Source of the DNA: Lentilactobacillus parabuchneri DSM 5707 = NBRC 107865
GTDB lineage: Bacteria; Bacillota; Bacilli; Lactobacillales; Lactobacillaceae
DNA: 64,000 bases
Assembly: GCF_001435315.1 (NCBI RefSeq)
Contig: NZ_AZGK01000004.1
Span: 62,001-126,000, forward strand
Reading direction: 5' to 3'
Below the pieces are notes generated by a model that searched no databases, was not told the DNA's origin, and was given only the letters and a program-made list of their open reading frames with translations. A program made the translations under genes and the position numbers. This document shows, in pieces, positions 30,408 through 38,050 of this stretch (its first letter is position 1; every line of letters begins with the position of its first letter).

Positions 30408-31850
30408 TAATCGTCAACACTTAAATCCATTATCTATCGGCTATTTTTTGTTTCACCATACCTGGGACACGCTCATCCTGTTATTTTTGAGTTTGAATCC
30501 CATTACCAATTTGTCGCGGAAAATCGGGATTGACCCAATGATTGGATTTGGTGGCTTACTCTTAATCATTCTTGGCTTATACGGCATCAAATATTGGTTT
30601 TTTACCTTTGAATTTGATAATGAGATGCTGACCATCAACACCGGTGTCTTTGTCAAAAAGCACACCCATATTCCGTACGGCCGCATCCAAACCATTCAGC
30701 ATACCCAATGGTTTTTCCTGGTTCCCTTTCATTTGGAAAAGCTGCAGATTGAAACGGCTGGCCACGACGAAAAAGCCCCAGAAGCAGTTCTTCCCTTGGT
30801 TAATGAACGAGTCAGAGCAGAAATTGAAAGAAAACGACTTGGAAAAACGCGGTCAAATGACATTCCCGTGAGCCGGATCAAGGCGACAACACCGCTTTTA
30901 AGCCAGTTGCCGATTACACAATCGACCCGCATGAGCTGAATTTATTTGCCCTCACCTCGCTTGGCATTTTCCCAATTATCGGTGCCCTATTTGCGTTGTT
31001 TGGTAAAATCCAAGAAGCAATTCCAGAAAAGGTGATTGATTCGGTTGCCTCAAAACTGATTCACCAATCAGCAATCATTATCATGACGGTGGGTATTTTA
31101 ATCGTTTTGATCAGTATTGCCGGCTCGTATCTGACCATCGTTCAAAAGTATTATAAATTCCGGATTAATTCCGACAACACCCAATTAAAAACCGAGCAAG
31201 GCCTTTTTCAACGCAACGCTGTCACTATTCCAATCGCCCGCATTCAAGCACTGCGTATCAAGCAAAACGTGATTCGTCAGTGGCTAAGACTAACCACTGT
31301 CCAAGCACTTGCAGCATCCTCCGCCGGTGACGACGAAAAGGGCAATGATTTAATGATTCTGCCAGTGGTTAAAACCCAAACCGCCTTTTCGACGACTTCC
31401 AGATTTGTCAATTGGGCACCCCATCAGTTGAGCGGGATGGCGCGCTTAAGTCGCCGCAGCTACTGGTACTTTATCCGAAATGCGTCACTCATGAGCCTGA
31501 TCGTTATTTTTCCGTGTCTGTATTTCTTCAAGGGCTGGGGCTTACTGAGCACACCATTATTCTTAATTGCCATTTTGTTGGGCTGGTATTCCGGGAATAA
31601 CACCGGCTGGAAAATTTTGGACGGTCAGCTGGTTCTCCAAAACGGCCACTGGTTCACCCGTTCCCAATACGTCATCCCCCACAAAAATGTGCAGTCATTT
31701 TTATTTGTTCAATCGATTTGGATGACGCACTCCAAGCTCGCCCACATCCGCGTCAACGTGCGCCACGGCAATCAAAACGAACTGATTGAAATTCGCTATT
31801 TGCCCGAAGAATCCGGTAAAGAAATTTTTAATTGGTTAAAAATCAGGTAA
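30397..31850 (+). pseudogene. bPH2-domain membrane protein (YdbT-like), frameshifted
   Basis: YdbT proteins are single chains of about 480-500 residues with three PH-like repeats. Here the first frame (ATG 30397) encodes helices and PH repeat 1, then ends at 30939 in an unrelated tail. From 30861 another frame is open and reads GDNTAFKPVADYTIDPHELN and LFALTSLGIFPIIGALFALF into the second and third repeats, ending at 31850. One gained or lost base in the linker, between about 30861 and 30915, explains it. An ATG at 30996 would give only the 284-residue C-terminal part without its first helix. Confidence 0.78.
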
Positions 31851-31908
31851 CAGTTAATGTGATTAAGCAGTATACTGATAAACAAACGACTTTTAGGAGG
31901 TTCAATCT

Positions 31909-32754
31909 ATGAGAGAAGTCACCATTGGAGATTCAAATGTCCCTGCCATTGGTCTTGGGACTTGGCATATGGGCGATAATAACGCAACCCGGGGAACCGA
32001 GATTAAGGCACTTAAAGACGGCATTGCTGCCGGAGCCCGCGTGCTCGATACGGCAGAAATGTATGGTAATGGTCGCAGTGAGCGTTTAGTTGGAGAAGCG
32101 ATCAAAGGGATGAACCGCGATGAACTTTTCATTATCGACAAGGTGCTGCCGTCAAATGCTTCGGCTTCTCGTCTTGAGCACAGCCTGGACACCAGTCTCA
32201 AGCAAGTTGGGACCGACTACTTCGACTTATACCTCTACCATTGGCGTGGGGCGATTCCGCTGAGTGAAACCATTTTGACCCTTCAGCAGATGCAAACCAA
32301 GGGTAAGATCAAGCACTGGGGTGTCTCCAACTTTGACATTTCTGATATGGAAGAGTTGCTCGAACTGCCCAATGCCGACCAGGTCGCTGCTAATGAAGAC
32401 TTGTACAACCTCGGCAGTCGTGGCATTGAATATAGCTTGTTGCCATGGATGCGAGAGCGAAAGATTCCGTTAATCGCGTATACTCCCGTGGCTGCCGGCG
32501 ATCAACGCGGCCGGTTGACTGCCGATCCCGTTGTCAAGCAAATTGCAGCGAACCATTCTGCTTCCGCTTGGCAAATCATTTTGGCTTGGGCGATCCGTGA
32601 TGGAAATACCATCGCCATCCCCCAGTCAAACGATCCAAAGCACACGGTTGATAATGTCTTGGCGGCAAACATCACGCTGACAGCCAACGAACTCGCCCAG
32701 CTGGATGTGCAATTTCCTAAGCCAAACAGTAAGCAACCATTGGATATGAGATAA
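31909..32754 (+). CDS. Aldo-keto reductase
   Basis: A 281-residue AKR with Asp47, Tyr52, Lys78 and His111 in place (VLDTAEMYGNG, IIDKVLP, LYLYHWRG) and a C-terminal NADPH element IAIPQSNDPKHTVDN. It resembles the 2,5-diketo-gluconate/YqkF-like branch; the substrate is unknown. TTAGGAGG lies before the ATG and TATACT about 40 bases upstream. It is followed by its own terminator, so it is separate from the lipoate genes. Confidence 0.88.
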   Translation: MREVTIGDSNVPAIGLGTWHMGDNNATRGTEIKALKDGIAAGARVLDTAEMYGNGRSERLVGEAIKGMNRDELFIIDKVLPSNASASRLEHSLDTSLKQVGTDYFDLYLYHWRGAIPLSETILTLQQMQTKGKIKHWGVSNFDISDMEELLELPNADQVAANEDLYNLGSRGIEYSLLPWMRERKIPLIAYTPVAAGDQRGRLTADPVVKQIAANHSASAWQIILAWAIRDGNTIAIPQSNDPKHTVDNVLAANITLTANELAQLDVQFPKPNSKQPLDMR

Positions 32755-32806
32755 ATACTAAAAAAGTAAATACACAAACTCGCTCCGTTAATCGGAATGG
32801 GTTACA

Positions 32807-32844
32807 ATGCAGTTAGGCGAATAACGTCCAACTGCATTTTTATT
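32807..32844 (+). terminator. Intrinsic terminator
   Basis: ATGCAGTT...AACTGCAT stem followed by TTTTATTT, between the AKR and the first lipoate ligase. Confidence 0.75.
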
Positions 32845-32889
32845 TAAAGAAATTTGTAACCGCTTACTTTGATAAAGGAGCTGATTATT

Positions 32890-33936
32890 ATTAGGTATAT
32901 AGATATTTCAAATGGGGAAAAGTATTTAAATAGGCCAATGATCACTGATAGCTTGGCTAACTTTTTCATCACAGACCCCAAATTTACTGAACCTGTTTTC
33001 TTCTTTTCACGGCCACCACAATCCGCTGTCGTCATTGGAGTTAACCAAGATGTCTATTCCGAAGTCAATTTGAATTTCATCCATGAGCATAACATTCAAC
33101 TTTCACGTCGTTTTGCGGGCGGTGGCGCTGTCTTTGTTGATTCCGGCAATTTAACTTATACCTTCATCGACAACTACGACGGCACCAACTACGGTGACTT
33201 CAAACGTTACGCTCAGCCCGTTATCTCCACCCTCAAGAAACTGGGGGTTGATGCCAAAATGACTGGTCGAAATGATTTAACCGTCGACGGCAAAAAAGTT
33301 TCAGGAATGTCTGCCTTAAAGATCGGCAACCGTTTCTTATGCGGCGGCACCTTAATGGTCGATGTCGATTTGGCAGCAGCTGCCAAGGCACTGACACCGC
33401 CCAAAGCCAAATTGCAGTCGAAAGGTATCAAATCAGTTCACAGTCGGGTCACCAACATCCGTCAATTCTTTGATCCAAAATATAAAAATATAACCATGGA
33501 AGAATTACAGAATCGGATTTTACTTCAGGTCTTTCACGCCTCTGATCTCCGCGATATCCCGACTTACACGATGACGGATGATGATTGGAAAGCCGTTTTG
33601 GCAATTGCCGATAAAGCTTACACCGGCAACGACTTTGTCATGGGAGAAAAACCAAATGATGATTACTTCCGCGGTCGCCATTTTGATGGTGTCGGCACAG
33701 TTGAAATCAGCTTCTCGGTTCAAAATGACGTCGTCACCCACGCCAAAATCTATGGCGATTTCAACAACCCAAATGGTGACCTAAAGGCAATTGAGGCCAA
33801 CATTACCAACGTTCCGTTTGCCAAAGCCAGCTTGACAGAAGCCTTCCGAACAAGTCACGTCAAAGAAAATATTGGCAACGTTGACCCTGAAGCACTGGCT
33901 GAAATGATGGTTAAAGACAACTACGATCTTAAGTAA
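32890..33936 (+). CDS. lplA: Lipoate-protein ligase A, first copy, probable AUU start
   Basis: About 348 residues. The biotin/lipoate-ligase fold is marked by SRRFAGGGAVFVDSGNLTY (the RRxxGGGAVxHD motif), GRNDLTVDGKKVSG with the catalytic lysine region, and KIGNRFLCGGTLMVDVDL. It activates lipoate with ATP and attaches it to a carrier lysine, presumably on the GcvH encoded 17 bases downstream. AAAGGAG (32874-32880) is nine bases before ATT AGG TAT, where homology begins (RYIDISNG). The only canonical in-frame start, TTG 32869, lies ahead of that site. Confidence 0.88.
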   Translation: MRYIDISNGEKYLNRPMITDSLANFFITDPKFTEPVFFFSRPPQSAVVIGVNQDVYSEVNLNFIHEHNIQLSRRFAGGGAVFVDSGNLTYTFIDNYDGTNYGDFKRYAQPVISTLKKLGVDAKMTGRNDLTVDGKKVSGMSALKIGNRFLCGGTLMVDVDLAAAAKALTPPKAKLQSKGIKSVHSRVTNIRQFFDPKYKNITMEELQNRILLQVFHASDLRDIPTYTMTDDDWKAVLAIADKAYTGNDFVMGEKPNDDYFRGRHFDGVGTVEISFSVQNDVVTHAKIYGDFNNPNGDLKAIEANITNVPFAKASLTEAFRTSHVKENIGNVDPEALAEMMVKDNYDLK

Positions 33937-33953
33937 TGGAAAGGATGATTCAC

Positions 33954-34262
33954 ATGGCAGATAAAATAGATGATTCAAAGTACTTATGGACAGACAAAAC
34001 CGATGACGGTCACACCCGAATTGGATTGAACGATCTGGCTCGAAATGAAATTGGTCAAGTCACCTTCGCTGAATTCCCGGAAAAATTGACACAAGTCGAA
34101 GACGGCGACCCAATTCTTTCATTTGAGGGTGCCAAAGCCGTTACTGAAATTCACACTCCGGTTGCCGGCAAGGTTGCCAGGATTAACTCCGATTTGATCG
34201 AACATCCTGAGTTATTAAACGAAGATAATCGGGACAAAACTTGGATTGTGGAACTTTTTTAG
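33954..34262 (+). CDS. gcvH: GcvH-like lipoyl carrier protein, first copy
   Basis: A 102-residue lipoyl domain, shorter than the usual 125-130-residue glycine cleavage H protein. The lipoylated lysine is Lys61 in LSFEGAKAVTEIHTPVAG, where classical GcvH has ESVKA. The N-terminal DDSKYLW and GHTRIGL features of H proteins are present. No gcvP or gcvT is nearby, so it more likely serves as a lipoyl relay or as a dedicated carrier, as GcvH-L does in SirTM-type operons. GAAAGG before ATG 33954. Confidence 0.88.
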   Translation: MADKIDDSKYLWTDKTDDGHTRIGLNDLARNEIGQVTFAEFPEKLTQVEDGDPILSFEGAKAVTEIHTPVAGKVARINSDLIEHPELLNEDNRDKTWIVELF

Positions 34263-34286
34263 CTAAATCGATTTAAATAACGATAA

Positions 34287-34326
34287 GACGGGCTTCATGT
34301 GAGTACACGTGATGCCCGTCGCCTTT
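34287..34326 (+). terminator. Terminator after the first lipoyl module
   Basis: GACGGGC...GCCCGTC stem with an extended inner CATGTG/CACGTG pairing, then GCCTTTTG. The T-run is weak. Confidence 0.6.
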
Positions 34327-34401
34327 TGCAATTCATTAACCCCATGCTATACTATTTTTATGTAATCGCTACCAAGTCTATTTGAAAAGGAGGGCAAACT
34401 C

Positions 34402-35457
34402 ATTTTATTTGTTGATTTATCAGATCCAATTTCACAGCAACACCTACGAAAACCCGGAGTTGGCGGCAGCTTATCAACATTTTTTATTACTGCCGATCAA
34501 TTTACCGATACCATTTTCCACTTTTCGCGGCCGTTTGAGGCGTCGGTTGTGCTGGGTGTTAACCAAGATGCCTATTCAGAAGTGAATTTAGATTACATCA
34601 AACAACAGCACATTCATTTATCAAGACGGGCAGCCGGTGGCGGTGCCGTGTATGTGGACCATGGTAACCTGACCTACGCTTTTGTGGACAACGATGACGG
34701 CACAGACTACTTAAACTTCAAGAAGTACGCGACACCCGCAATCAACGTATTGCATCAAATGGGTGTCAACGCTGAAATGACCGGACGAAATGATTTGACC
34801 GTTGACGGCAAAAAATTCTCTGGCATGTCATCACTCAAGATTGGCAATCGCTTTTCCTGCGGTGGCACATTAATGATCGATGTCGATTTGGACCGGGCGG
34901 CTAAAGCGCTGACCCCACCCAAAACCAAATTAAAGTCAAAGGGTGTCAAATCAGTGCATAGTCGAGTGACCAACATTCGGCAGTACTTCTTGCCAAAGTA
35001 TCGAGACATTACCTTCGCCGGCATCAAGGAATTGATGTTAAAAGAGGTCTTTTCCACCGACGACCTTACCTCAATTCCGACCTATAAAATGACGGCATCC
35101 GATTGGCAGGAAGTCGAAAAAATCGCCAGCGGCAAATTTACCGACCCTGATTTCATCATGGGAACCAAACGTGATGATGACTTCTTCCACGGGGAACATT
35201 TTGACGGTCTTGGAACAATCGAGATTAGCTTTTCCGTTAACGACGGCATTATCACCCACGCCAGAATTTTTGGCGATTTTAACAAGGCCAATGGCGATCT
35301 TCGCGCAATTGAAGACCAGATTACCGGGGTGCCTTTCCGAAAAGACAGTTTAGTTGAAGCGTTTCGGATCAGTCATCTAAGTGATAATATCGGCCAAATT
35401 TCACCCCAACAGATGGCCGAACTCATGTTAGACAAGCAATTTCGGGAGGTGAATTAA
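34402..35457 (+). CDS. lplA: Lipoate-protein ligase A, second copy, AUU start
   Basis: 351 residues, alignable from end to end with the first copy (SRRAAGGGAVYVDHGNLTY, GRNDLTVDGKKFSG, KIGNRFSCGGTLMIDVDL). AAAAGGAGG (34385-34393) is eight bases before ATT TTA TTT GTT. Between the upstream in-frame stop at 34363 and the GTG at 34549 there is no ATG, GTG or TTG in frame. The conserved N-terminal part (SLSTFFITADQF...TIFHFSRPFEAS) can therefore only be made from the ATT. The stop overlaps the lyase start (TAATG). It probably loads GcvH copy 2. Confidence 0.88.
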   Translation: MLFVDLSDPISQQHLRKPGVGGSLSTFFITADQFTDTIFHFSRPFEASVVLGVNQDAYSEVNLDYIKQQHIHLSRRAAGGGAVYVDHGNLTYAFVDNDDGTDYLNFKKYATPAINVLHQMGVNAEMTGRNDLTVDGKKFSGMSSLKIGNRFSCGGTLMIDVDLDRAAKALTPPKTKLKSKGVKSVHSRVTNIRQYFLPKYRDITFAGIKELMLKEVFSTDDLTSIPTYKMTASDWQEVEKIASGKFTDPDFIMGTKRDDDFFHGEHFDGLGTIEISFSVNDGIITHARIFGDFNKANGDLRAIEDQITGVPFRKDSLVEAFRISHLSDNIGQISPQQMAELMLDKQFREVN

Positions 35458-36860
35458 TGACCAGTGGCGAAATGTTAGGCTCCTTTTTTAACCAAAACGG
35501 GTACTCGACTGCAAGAATGCGGCAGATATGGTCCGATGAAAATCGGGTCAAAGTCGTCTGCCAAGCAGAGGTCGCCGTCGCCTATGCAATGGCTAAAAAC
35601 GGGCGAATCCCCAAGAGGGCCTACGATGAAATTTCATCTAAACTTGTTTTCGACAACATTGACCTGCGCCAATTAAAAATTGAATCGGCCAGGGCCGGCC
35701 ATTTTCTGGCAGGATTTGTCAAAGTCGTCCAGCCGTTATTTGATGATGAAAGCGGCCAGTACGTTCATTTCGGCGCGGCGAGTGAAGACATCGAGGATAC
35801 GGCCTTTGTCCTGCAGTTGAAACAATCCGATGCCGTCCTAAAAGATTATCTTCGCCAATTGGGAGACGTCTTATATCAGCTTTGCGAGAAATACAAGACA
35901 ACCATCACGGCTGCCGTTGCCCACAAGACGTTCGCTGCGCCGACAACGTTAGGGTTTAAGCTGGGCATCGTGTTAAATGAACTGGATCATTTGATGACGA
36001 AATTGGACTCGCTTGGCCCATTTACCTTCGCGGGCAGCTTGGCAGGCGCGGACGGGACGTCTTCGATGCTCGGTTCCGACTACCGCAAAATTGAACATGA
36101 TTTTTGTGAACACTTGGGACTAGCCACCCCAGAGATGTATTGGCACACCCAACGGGAGCGGTTCACGGAATACAGTCACGTGGAAACCATGATTGCCCAA
36201 GTGATTGGCCGGCTCGGCAAGAATCTGCTGTACATGAGCGAAACGATCGTCGGCGAATTTCAGGAAGGCTATGCCCCCGGCCGGCAGGGTTCCACTGTCG
36301 TGCCAACCGTTCGGAACCCCTACATGGTTGAAGCGGTGGTCAACTTAGCGACGGTTATCCGCAATGAAATGGGCTTAATGTATGATACGATGAGCGTTGA
36401 TGGTGAAAAAGATACCACTGTTTGGCGAGATCTATACGTCGCTTTACCCGAGATGACCATGTATCTGTCCGGGCAATTAAACTATGCCATCAATATTCTC
36501 CAATTTGGCAAGTTTAGCCCGCAACGGATGCTGAAAAATTTAGCCGCCGACGATGGGACGATGTATTCCGGTGCGCTCATGTTGAAGCTGGCTGAATCCA
36601 TGGGTCGCGAGAACGCCCACAACTTGTTGGTGGCGTTACGTGCAAAAGCCGACGACCAAGAAATCCCGCTGAAACAATTATTTTATTCCGATTCAACTAT
36701 CAGTCAATACCTCAGCCATGCCGACTTAGACGGCCTAATGACCCCTAGTGGCCACGTCGGCAACGCCATCGCCAAGACAAACACAATTCTCAATCTCTAT
36801 TCAAAACGACACTTAACTGACGATCAACGAAAGGAAGATTCACATGGCACAAAAAATTGA
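35457..36860 (+). CDS. Fumarase/adenylosuccinate-lyase superfamily enzyme in the lipoyl operon
   Basis: A 467-residue member of the aspartase/fumarase superfamily, closest in pattern to adenylosuccinate lyase and 3-carboxymuconate cycloisomerase: the N-terminal block NGYSTARMRQIWSDENRV, AVAHKTFAAPTTLGFK around the usual THxQ histidine, and the flexible signature loop. That loop reads GSTVVPTVRNP where the family has GSSxMPxKxNP, so the usual Met and Lys are both Val. The chemistry, C-N or C-O elimination, may be altered or lost. It is translationally coupled to lplA upstream, and gcvH copy 2 starts inside its 3' end, so its role is tied to the lipoyl carrier. Confidence 0.8.
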   Translation: MTSGEMLGSFFNQNGYSTARMRQIWSDENRVKVVCQAEVAVAYAMAKNGRIPKRAYDEISSKLVFDNIDLRQLKIESARAGHFLAGFVKVVQPLFDDESGQYVHFGAASEDIEDTAFVLQLKQSDAVLKDYLRQLGDVLYQLCEKYKTTITAAVAHKTFAAPTTLGFKLGIVLNELDHLMTKLDSLGPFTFAGSLAGADGTSSMLGSDYRKIEHDFCEHLGLATPEMYWHTQRERFTEYSHVETMIAQVIGRLGKNLLYMSETIVGEFQEGYAPGRQGSTVVPTVRNPYMVEAVVNLATVIRNEMGLMYDTMSVDGEKDTTVWRDLYVALPEMTMYLSGQLNYAINILQFGKFSPQRMLKNLAADDGTMYSGALMLKLAESMGRENAHNLLVALRAKADDQEIPLKQLFYSDSTISQYLSHADLDGLMTPSGHVGNAIAKTNTILNLYSKRHLTDDQRKEDSHGTKN

Positions 36861-37152
36861 TGATTCAAAGTACTTATGGCAAACAGAAACAAAGGATGGT
36901 CACACCCGAATTGGACTGAACGATTTGGCCCGCGGTGAAATTGGTGAAATTTCGTTTGCCGCCTTCCCTAAGGACTTGAGCGAAGTCCAAGATGGCGACG
37001 TGATTCTCTCATTTGAGGGTGCCAAAGCCGTCACGGAAGTGCATTCACCAAAGGCTGGCAAGGTTGCCAAAGTCAACTCAGCCTTATTGGAGCACCCCGA
37101 ATTATTAAACAATGATGATCAAGATAGCAACTGGATTATTGAATTATTTTAA
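36844..37152 (+). CDS. gcvH: GcvH-like lipoyl carrier protein, second copy
   Basis: A 102-residue lipoyl domain, about two-thirds identical to the first copy, with Lys61 in LSFEGAKAVTEVHSPKAG. Its ATG lies 17 bases inside the lyase gene, after GAAAGGAAG, which implies coupled translation and similar dosage. No glycine cleavage genes are present. The two carriers probably hold lipoate for different partners, this one for the lyase module. Confidence 0.88.
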   Translation: MAQKIDDSKYLWQTETKDGHTRIGLNDLARGEIGEISFAAFPKDLSEVQDGDVILSFEGAKAVTEVHSPKAGKVAKVNSALLEHPELLNNDDQDSNWIIELF

Positions 37153-37192
37153 CCCCGGTAAGCACACCGACTTTGCAATATAGGTACCACTG

Positions 37193-37228
37193 AAAAAGGG
37201 AATTGACTCAACTGTCAATTCCCTTTTC
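37193..37228. terminator. Bidirectional terminator
   Basis: AAAAGGGAATTGAC TCAACT GTCAATTCCCTTTT. It ends the lipoyl operon and, on the other strand, contains the stop codon of the secreted-protein gene. Confidence 0.9.
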
Positions 37229-38050
37229 GCCGATTTCGGTATAAAACTTTTGATTTCCAACTATATAATCATGATAATAAACGTTCGCAACAAATGCCTG
37301 CTTGCCGCCATCCCAAACCGTTTGCGTCTGCATTCGATTTGGCCCTGAAATGGTCAATCGATAACGGGCTTTGCCGGTCTTTTCAACGCGGACATCATGC
37401 ACACCTTTCAAATGGGCGCGGTAATATAAGAACGTTTTTTGGCCACGGCGTTGATACTTGGTAATTTTTGCAACTCCTGCCGGTCGGTTCAAAAAGCCTT
37501 CCGGTAAGCGCGTCGAACTGTATGGATAGGTTTCGACATAACCATCCGTGGTCAGTGCGAGCTTATTACTTTGAAATGCATTGGGAAAACTCTTCGGAAC
37601 TGTTCCGGCAAATAAGTTCCCATTGCTTGCCTGTGGCATGTATCCCGGTCGTTTAGCCGTTATAAACTTGGCCTTAGAGTACGGAATATCGCCGGTAAAG
37701 TCCTGCAGTTGTTCAAAGAAATAACCCGAACGATCGGCCGTTTTCTTAACGTGGTAACTCAAGGCTGTCGCATCAATCGCAATCGTTTTAATCCGGTGGT
37801 CTTTGACGAATGTCGGGTGCCCAGCAACAACCGTGTTTTTCGGAATCGTGATTGCTTTGTTTACGTAACGATTCGACTGAGGATCAGTTAAACCAATCGT
37901 CGTCTTAATTGGCACCTTGGTTTGATAAAAGTAAAAATCGATCCGGGCATTCTTTGGCGGCGTCATTGAATTGGCATTTGCCGCGCCACCCAAAATAAAG
38001 CCAAATAAAATTGTCGAAACAATTGTGATTGTCAATTTGATTGCATGCAT
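37208..38050 (-). CDS. Secreted protein of unknown function
   Basis: 280 residues with a signal peptide (about residues 1-28, ending GGAANAN) and a beta-rich, Lys/Tyr-rich mature part without cell-wall anchor, LysM or known enzyme motif. Local features such as KFITAKRPGYMPQASNG and TDGYVETYPYSSTRLP do not match a family I know. The start at 38050 follows GGGGGCGGT; a TTG further upstream is less likely. Probably a surface or exported protein of lactobacilli. Its stop lies in the terminator hairpin. Confidence 0.6.
   Translation of the reverse strand: MHAIKLTITIVSTILFGFILGGAANANSMTPPKNARIDFYFYQTKVPIKTTIGLTDPQSNRYVNKAITIPKNTVVAGHPTFVKDHRIKTIAIDATALSYHVKKTADRSGYFFEQLQDFTGDIPYSKAKFITAKRPGYMPQASNGNLFAGTVPKSFPNAFQSNKLALTTDGYVETYPYSSTRLPEGFLNRPAGVAKITKYQRRGQKTFLYYRAHLKGVHDVRVEKTGKARYRLTISGPNRMQTQTVWDGGKQAFVANVYYHDYIVGNQKFYTEIGEKGIDS

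Follow-up and report, generated by a model that had tools for sequence, protein, structure and literature searches.

A stretch of 64,000 nucleotides of contig NZ_AZGK01000004.1 from Lentilactobacillus parabuchneri DSM 5707 = NBRC 107865 (hereafter the window, in whose numbering all positions are given; the genome is 2.57 Mb in 50 contigs) encodes two lipoate-protein ligases (LplA), two stand-alone lipoyl carriers of the GcvH type and, between the second ligase and the second carrier, a lyase related to S-(2-succino) lyase (2SL). The principal finding is that the lplA-lyase-gcvH module is conserved in several genera of Lactobacillales; by a slight balance of the evidence, its 2SL-related lyase would act on the lipoyl arm of the dedicated GcvH carrier system. 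The features of the locus are as follows.

32887 or 32890 to 33936, plus strand: lplA1, lipoate-protein ligase (TIGR00545, 312.5 bits against a cut-off of 280; PF21948; PF10437)
33954 to 34262, plus strand: gcvH1, stand-alone lipoyl carrier of 102 amino acids, predicted lipoylation site Lys61 (PF01597, 75.9 bits)
34287 to 34320, plus strand: terminator-like hairpin between the modules (two stacked 7-bp stems; fold of 34263-34345, -25.7 kcal/mol)
34325 to 34353, plus strand: weakly supported sigma-70-like promoter match before lplA2 (TTTGCA/TTGCAA-TATACT, with TG before the -10 element)
34402 to 35457, plus strand: lplA2, lipoate-protein ligase with a probable ATT start (TIGR00545, 294.7 bits against a cut-off of 280)
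35457 to 36860, plus strand: lyase of the fumarase/aspartase superfamily, 467 amino acids, S-(2-succino) lyase-related (PF00206, 94.3 bits; tree, residues and structure model)
36844 to 37152, plus strand: gcvH2, stand-alone lipoyl carrier of 102 amino acids, Lys61 (PF01597, 62.4 bits)
37194 to 37227, plus strand: strong terminator-like hairpin 3' of gcvH2 (14-bp stem; fold of 37150-37240, -29.4 kcal/mol)

An earlier, sequence-only reading of this DNA had described an lplA-gcvH pair followed by lplA-lyase-gcvH on the plus strand, with overlapping genes in the second set. This layout was borne out by the open reading frames (ORFs) and their domain matches, all five genes (5/5) being in place and the second set being joined by overlaps of TAATG at 35457 (lplA2 and lyase) and of 17 nucleotides at 36844 (lyase and gcvH2). 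The same reading's notion of paired modules needs amendment: both lplA-gcvH sets are real, but lplA1-gcvH1 is a lyase-less paralogue, and the lyase belongs to the second set. Promoter-type sites in the region numbered 10 against 7.3 expected, and an Rfam scan of 31800-37400 returned zero RNA elements.

Searches with the lyase or a lyase profile covered 150 genomes of relatives, 398 of the family, 395 of the order and 399 of the class, together with those GTDB 220 species genomes whose records carry names; the relatives were compared for synteny and markers by means of a simple ORF picker rather than curated annotation. Lyases linked to lplA were found in L. parakefiri (two copies), L. hilgardii, L. 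parafarraginis, L. raoultii, L. farraginis and genome G006, in the Lactobacillaceae UBA5807, Bombilactobacillus apium (L056, and again as G814) and a probable genus-mate (G031), and further in Atopostipes suicloacalis and two genera of another Lactobacillales family (G280 and G343). The cluster of every complete lyase of this clade that was examined contains lplA, and gcvH is present in all clusters except two, which are second copies in L. parabuchneri and L. parakefiri, genomes that also hold the full set; the L. farraginis lyase is cut by a contig end, with gcvH still present. The order of the genes is lplA-lyase-gcvH in Lactobacillaceae, that of G343 and G280 is SBP-lplA-lyase-gcvH-permease-ATPase-GST (SBP, substrate-binding protein; GST, glutathione S-transferase), and that of Atopostipes is gcvH-lplA-SBP-permease-lyase-GST; gene order thus varies between lineages, while gene content is kept. 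Among the family-level matches whose flanks were examined, all lyases without the canonical Lys motif have an lplA within 1.5 kb, whereas none of those with GSSTMPQKRN does, and canonical GSSxMPxKxN lyases have neither lplA nor gcvH among their near neighbours. Because lplA is in every complete cluster and gcvH in all but two, through a shuffling of gene order that left the content intact, we consider it highly probable that the functional coupling of lyase and lipoyl carrier is real. Such a coupling had been proposed from the sequence, and the neighbourhoods uphold a conserved lyase-gcvH linkage, lplA-lyase-gcvH being kept in several genera, but the same genome has a second lplA-lyase pair without adjacent gcvH. 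The second pairs lie at L036:7987-10421 (G000:C12:297-299 kb) and L039:7645-10088 (lyase 64% identical), and that of L. parabuchneri is, as judged by eye, in the vicinity of CRISPR-like repeats and Cas-like genes.

At class level (399 genomes), nothing passed the threshold beyond the lplA-linked lyases of L. parabuchneri itself, so that the module is rare and, in the genomes sampled, limited to Lactobacillales. The best plasmid match to the lyase by tblastn (Niallia taxi, 33%) belongs to a 2SL-type operon, is not lplA-linked, and was set aside. In the hilgardii group (L170, L171, L173), the site syntenic to the window, which lies beside the same aldo-keto reductase gene and PH-domain-like gene, is occupied by lplA-gcvH pairs and a further lone gcvH without the lyase, the lyase module being located elsewhere.

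The lyase is a member of the fumarase/aspartase (lyase class I) superfamily: it matches Lyase_1 (PF00206, 94.3 bits) and ADSL_C (PF10397), and falls below every equivalog cut-off (purB 223.1 against 326.2, XcbD 268.1 against 600, CMLE 255.1 against 595), a separate purB-like gene being present in the genome at G000:C34:357-1574. Its predicted model (predicted local distance difference test score, pLDDT, 82.5; predicted template modelling score, pTM, 0.84; active-site loop 273-287 poorly modelled at pLDDT <50) matches the folds of CMLE (1re5, Z 41.4 over 435 residues) and trans-aconitate decarboxylase Tad1 (9h3i, Z 39.9). Adenylosuccinate lyase, CMLE and Tad1 share the fold of the lyase at 25-30% identity, but they form separate clades and differ from it in active-site motif and genomic context. 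Maximum-likelihood analysis places the 14 lplA-linked lyases in one clade (100/100), whose sister comprises 2SL-type rows (94/97), the union of the two receiving 91/85; the lplA-linked lyases therefore lie beside, not inside, the 2SL-type clade. The gene neighbours of the sister clade match the content of the published 2SL/yxe clusters: an amino-acid ATP-binding cassette (ABC) transporter, a GNAT acetyltransferase and an M20 deacetylase, mostly with MmgE/PrpD as well. It is on account of this neighbourhood and of its family that the clade is called 2SL-type, the tree having been built without the two characterised 2SL sequences. The superfamily assigned in the sequence-only reading is thus confirmed, but its label "ASL-like" is not the best one, the nearest tree relatives being 2SL-type C-S lyases. 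In PHROGs, the lyase matched one unnamed family and GcvH2 had no match. Other ASL-superfamily lyases with the canonical motif occur at L048:9528-10895 (G015) and L081:9472-10764 (G354), one of them next to ABC transporter genes; in the tree, both fall outside the 2SL-type and the lplA-linked clades.

Active-site residues were compared over the 14 lplA-linked rows, 11 of them from Lactobacillaceae. Ser279, His82, His104, His156, Asp111 and Glu292 are invariant across the clade, which indicates that the catalytic core is kept, and Asp319 is invariant too. Also clade-wide are Thr280 (elsewhere mostly Ser), Thr284 and Lys318, the last two contrasting with His or Gln and with Arg, respectively, in the 2SL-type lyases and elsewhere. 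The signature residues of this superfamily bind the substrate carboxylate. The signature G-S-x-x-M-x-x-K-x-N reads GSTVVPTVRN in the L. parabuchneri lyase, in which the Ser is kept, Met is replaced by Val, and Lys by Val285. The signature Lys is V or S in 11/11 Lactobacillaceae rows and M in Atopostipes, and is retained in G343 and G280, whereas the 2SL-type lyases keep GSSxMPxKxN; the Asn two positions past it is often E or C in Lactobacillaceae, where GRTH is also replaced by A-[IVM]-A-H. Since the superfamily Lys is lost in Lactobacillaceae, the acid bound there is probably not plain fumarate. Strong purifying selection acts on the lyases (proportions of nonsynonymous and synonymous differences, pN 0.06-0.14 and pS 0.68-0.87).

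Both ligases pass the TIGR00545 equivalog cut-off, carry the LplA-B_cat and Lip_prot_lig_C domains, and are 60% identical to each other. The module LplAs of Lactobacillaceae form a single clade of 23 rows (100/100), which also takes in the LplAs of an lplA-dehydratase set and of the lplA-gcvH pairs that lack a lyase, whereas those of G343 and G280 and that of Atopostipes (a long branch of unsure placement) fall outside it; at least three label changes are forced by the starred branches of this tree. Because the lyases are monophyletic and the LplAs are not, the ligase was replaced while the partnership with a lipoyl ligase was kept, and the need for a lipoyl ligase seems, from these trees, to have outlived the original ligase. 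In the lplA-dehydratase set, a further lplA of the same clade adjoins a galactonate/gluconate-dehydratase-like gene of the enolase superfamily (L175:6514-10431 in G000:C23, L178:6504-10421, L172:6612-11633); the set lies 3' of an OppA-type binding protein gene and lacks gcvH, and its ORFs overlap by 1 nucleotide in L175. This LplA lineage is therefore linked to two unrelated lyase/dehydratase superfamilies. Neither lplA of the window has ATG, GTG or TTG at the expected distance from the Shine-Dalgarno sequence (32881-32892 and 34402-34404); for lplA1 this sequence is AAAGGAG, with ATT at 32887 or 32890. The L. parakefiri and G006 counterparts (L040, L041) also have ATT or ATC and no ATG, GTG or TTG at the start position, an in-frame TGA ruling out an upstream start for L. 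parakefiri lplA1, and ATG or GTG occupies this place in most of the clade's remaining lplA genes. Conserved AUU initiation is thus probable for the lplA genes of the window and their counterparts.

Regarding the carriers, GcvH1 and GcvH2 are indeed 102 residues long with Lys61 in an FEGAKA context, as had first been read from the sequence, and both exceed the gathering score of PF01597 (GCV_H). They are 72% identical to each other and miss the gcvH equivalog TIGR00527 (115.85 bits) at 75.5 and 60.5 bits, respectively, and the Lys of the lipoylation motif is kept in every module GcvH. GcvP (PF02347) had no match in the L. parabuchneri genome, whereas 10/14 control genomes matched (GcvT was not searched for), and there was no match over the cut-off in any of the 12 lyase-bearing genomes, namely this one and 11 others, in keeping with the sequence-only reading, which a gcvP elsewhere in the genome would have spoken against. 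Similarly, the reported absence of macrodomain, sirtuin and GcvP genes holds for the five-gene set, but a CobB-type sirtuin is encoded elsewhere in the genome, and four relatives have a macrodomain gene next to the module. That gene, seen in four Lentilactobacillus species, is of the YmdB type and convergent with the module gcvH, with no SirTM gene beside it (L042:10750-11253, L043:10514-11020, L044:7427-7996, L049:1285-1779). Another short gcvH, which spans families, lies 3' of an FtsW/RodA-like gene (L037:7256-8767, L183:8694-10637, L184:8091-9989), with an ArsC-like gene between the two in two genomes.

The module was compared with known systems. 2SL was discovered in yxe clusters, whose gene content includes an acetyltransferase, a deacetylase and a transporter; its cleavage of N-acetyl-S-(2-succino)cysteine, which yields fumarate and N-acetylcysteine, is readily reversible, and it succinates dithiothreitol on one or both thiols (PMC9706529). 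What the yxe/scm clusters (PMC9706529) share with the module is a sister lyase clade of lyase class I, the catalytic Ser and His and, in part of the lplA-linked clade, linkage to a cystine-type ABC transporter; however, the acetyltransferase and M20 deacetylase of the 2SL-type clusters are both absent from the lplA-linked clusters, which have lplA and gcvH instead. In SirTM operons, the operon's own LplA2 lipoylates the carrier GcvH-L, and an oxidoreductase of the Old Yellow Enzyme (OYE) type binds GcvH-L only if it is lipoylated, which sets a precedent for an enzyme recognising a free-standing GcvH by its lipoyl arm; what GcvH-L carries was left open (PMC4518038). The extended SirTM operon (PMC4518038) likewise has its own ligase, a short GcvH-like carrier and accessory enzymes, independent of glycine cleavage, but it contains SirTM, a paired macrodomain, OYE and a luciferase-like monooxygenase (LLM), whereas the lyase module has none of these and a fumarase-superfamily lyase instead. 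A link to SirTM was rejected, since the sole sirtuin of the L. parabuchneri genome has CobB-type motifs and is located elsewhere, unlinked to the module. An apparently complete extended SirTM operon (lplA, SirTM, macrodomain, gcvH, LLM and divergent OYE), with a gene set unlike that of the lyase module, was observed at L180:5676-11363 in G152, a genome that also holds a 2SL-type cluster; the idea that the SirTM LLM monooxygenase is the counterpart of the LLM oxygenase of the S-(2-succino)cysteine operon was not supported by blastp of L180 against the Niallia LLM. LbpA of sHdr sulfur oxidation (PMC6067878) is similar in that it binds lipoate as a stand-alone protein, has a dedicated ligase and plays a part in sulfur chemistry outside the glycine cleavage system. 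The lyase module, by contrast, is found in fermentative Firmicutes; among the ORFs read in the surroundings of the module in relatives, no hdr-like gene was recognised, no hdr family scan having been run. The combination of a free-standing carrier, a dedicated ligase and an accessory enzyme is already known in kind from the SirTM operons and LbpA. For the lplA-lyase-gcvH module itself, no description was found in the literature searched, which consisted of open-licence papers only and is weak evidence of absence.

The additional partners in G343, G280 and Atopostipes also bear on the chemistry, their names being best matches. Their GST groups with YqjG/glutathionyl-hydroquinone reductase structures (E 2.5e-29 for the G343 copy), and the best NCBIfam models for the transporter include cystine ABC components, below the curated cut-offs; this cystine-type transporter is present in the G343 and G280 clusters and partial in Atopostipes. 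By their homology, GST and transporter point to sulfur and thioether chemistry. The GST family is one that reduces thioether conjugates.

We propose that LplA2 would attach lipoate to Lys61 of GcvH2, as expected from its family and by analogy with the SirTM operon pair, and that the reduced dihydrolipoyl arm of GcvH would be the thiol partner of the lyase. Like 2SL, the lyase would use thiol addition or beta-elimination to make or break a C-S bond, here one that joins the arm thiol to a small unsaturated carboxylic acid; we infer this chemistry from the 2SL-type sister clade, the cystine-type transporter, the GST family and the kept Ser and His residues. Where the cluster includes the transporter, the system might be fed by an imported amino-acid-like thioether or by the acid released from it, and the GST-like protein might reductively remove the adduct, the second lipoyl thiol closing a disulfide; both of these steps are speculative. 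GcvH1 and LplA1 would be a duplicated carrier and ligase, possibly served by the same lyase. That the carrier thiol is the substrate of the lyase is favoured, if narrowly. More tentatively, protein-bound dihydrolipoate could be a tethered thiol cofactor that replaces glutathione or N-acetylcysteine, with GST-like release in some lineages.

Several points weigh against the lipoyl arm as the substrate of the lyase. There are two lplA-lyase pairs without adjacent gcvH, and the Lactobacillaceae clusters have neither transporter nor GST; a GST that would track the lyase in Lentilactobacillus was considered and rejected, homologues being present with and without the lyase. The join of the two lyase clades is only moderately supported (91/85), in a tree built without the characterised 2SL sequences. 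The loss of the Lys and the variable Asn in Lactobacillaceae, as read from the alignment, make plain fumarate chemistry doubtful there. Lastly, the larger thiols glutathione and coenzyme A are not 2SL substrates (PMC9706529), so that a protein-bound thiol would need a remodelled active site.

Among the alternatives, the one that survives best, and is still unlikely, is that LplA and GcvH scavenge lipoate and relay it to the E2 of pyruvate dehydrogenase (PDH), the lyase being a co-regulated enzyme of sulfur metabolism that never touches the carrier. In the lipoyl relay of B. subtilis, GcvH passes the lipoyl group to E2; a PDH-type E2 is present in 12/12 lyase-bearing genomes, some clusters have transporter genes, and the L. 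parabuchneri genome encodes seven LplA homologues, which implies that scavenging is important. However, there are other ligase and carrier genes to serve E2 in the same genome, which encodes four short GcvH proteins in all, and the lyase-LplA linkage is kept over several genera despite changed gene order and replaced LplA lineages. Furthermore, a relay gives no reason for the lyase, nor for its clade-wide active-site changes.

Less probable again is a repair or salvage role, in which the lyase strips S-adducts, such as those of succination, off lipoyl groups or imported lipoate derivatives for reuse by LplA, the carrier being a client and not a cofactor. The transporter and LplA could import lipoyl-amino acids, and the reduction of thioether conjugates by the GST family would suit such a role. 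Nonetheless, repair should serve E2 too, whereas the lyase is coupled to a GcvH that stands alone and has no partner enzyme, and the loss of the superfamily Lys speaks against succinate adducts in Lactobacillaceae. The properties of 2SL count on both sides, since it cleaves S-succino adducts and acts on a dithiol, but its equilibrium favours adduct formation (PMC9706529).

It is more doubtful still that the Lactobacillaceae lyase is a pseudoenzyme, i.e., a scaffold or regulator that binds lipoyl-GcvH. The lost Lys, the variable Asn and the change of GRTH to A-[IVM]-A-H would fit this, but the clade-wide invariance of Ser279, His82, His156, Glu292 and Asp319 and the strong selection argue otherwise, as do the two Lys-keeping genera, which have the same partners. 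Finally, a SirTM-like redox system, in which lipoyl-dependent ADP-ribosylation switches GcvH-L with the lyase as an accessory, draws on the macrodomain gene adjoining the module in four relatives and is very improbable, as there is no SirTM gene, the sole sirtuin of the genome is CobB-type and lies elsewhere, and the adjoining macrodomain is YmdB-type and convergent, E. coli YmdB having failed to reverse the SirTM mark (PMC4518038).

GcvH-like carriers that stand alone and have a dedicated ligase are common in Lactobacillales, where they would function apart from glycine cleavage; here, one of them is coupled to a lyase for whose near relatives a thiol reaction is known and easily assayed. The lyase sequences, in which the active site is altered, would also bring a substrate that is probably carrier-bound into the C-S branch of the fumarase superfamily. 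Overall, the module suggests that lipoic acid may serve as a thiol bound to protein, a use not described before; if true, the thiol-cofactor reading would add a new role of lipoate to those in 2-oxoacid dehydrogenases, glycine cleavage, sulfur oxidation and SirTM signalling.

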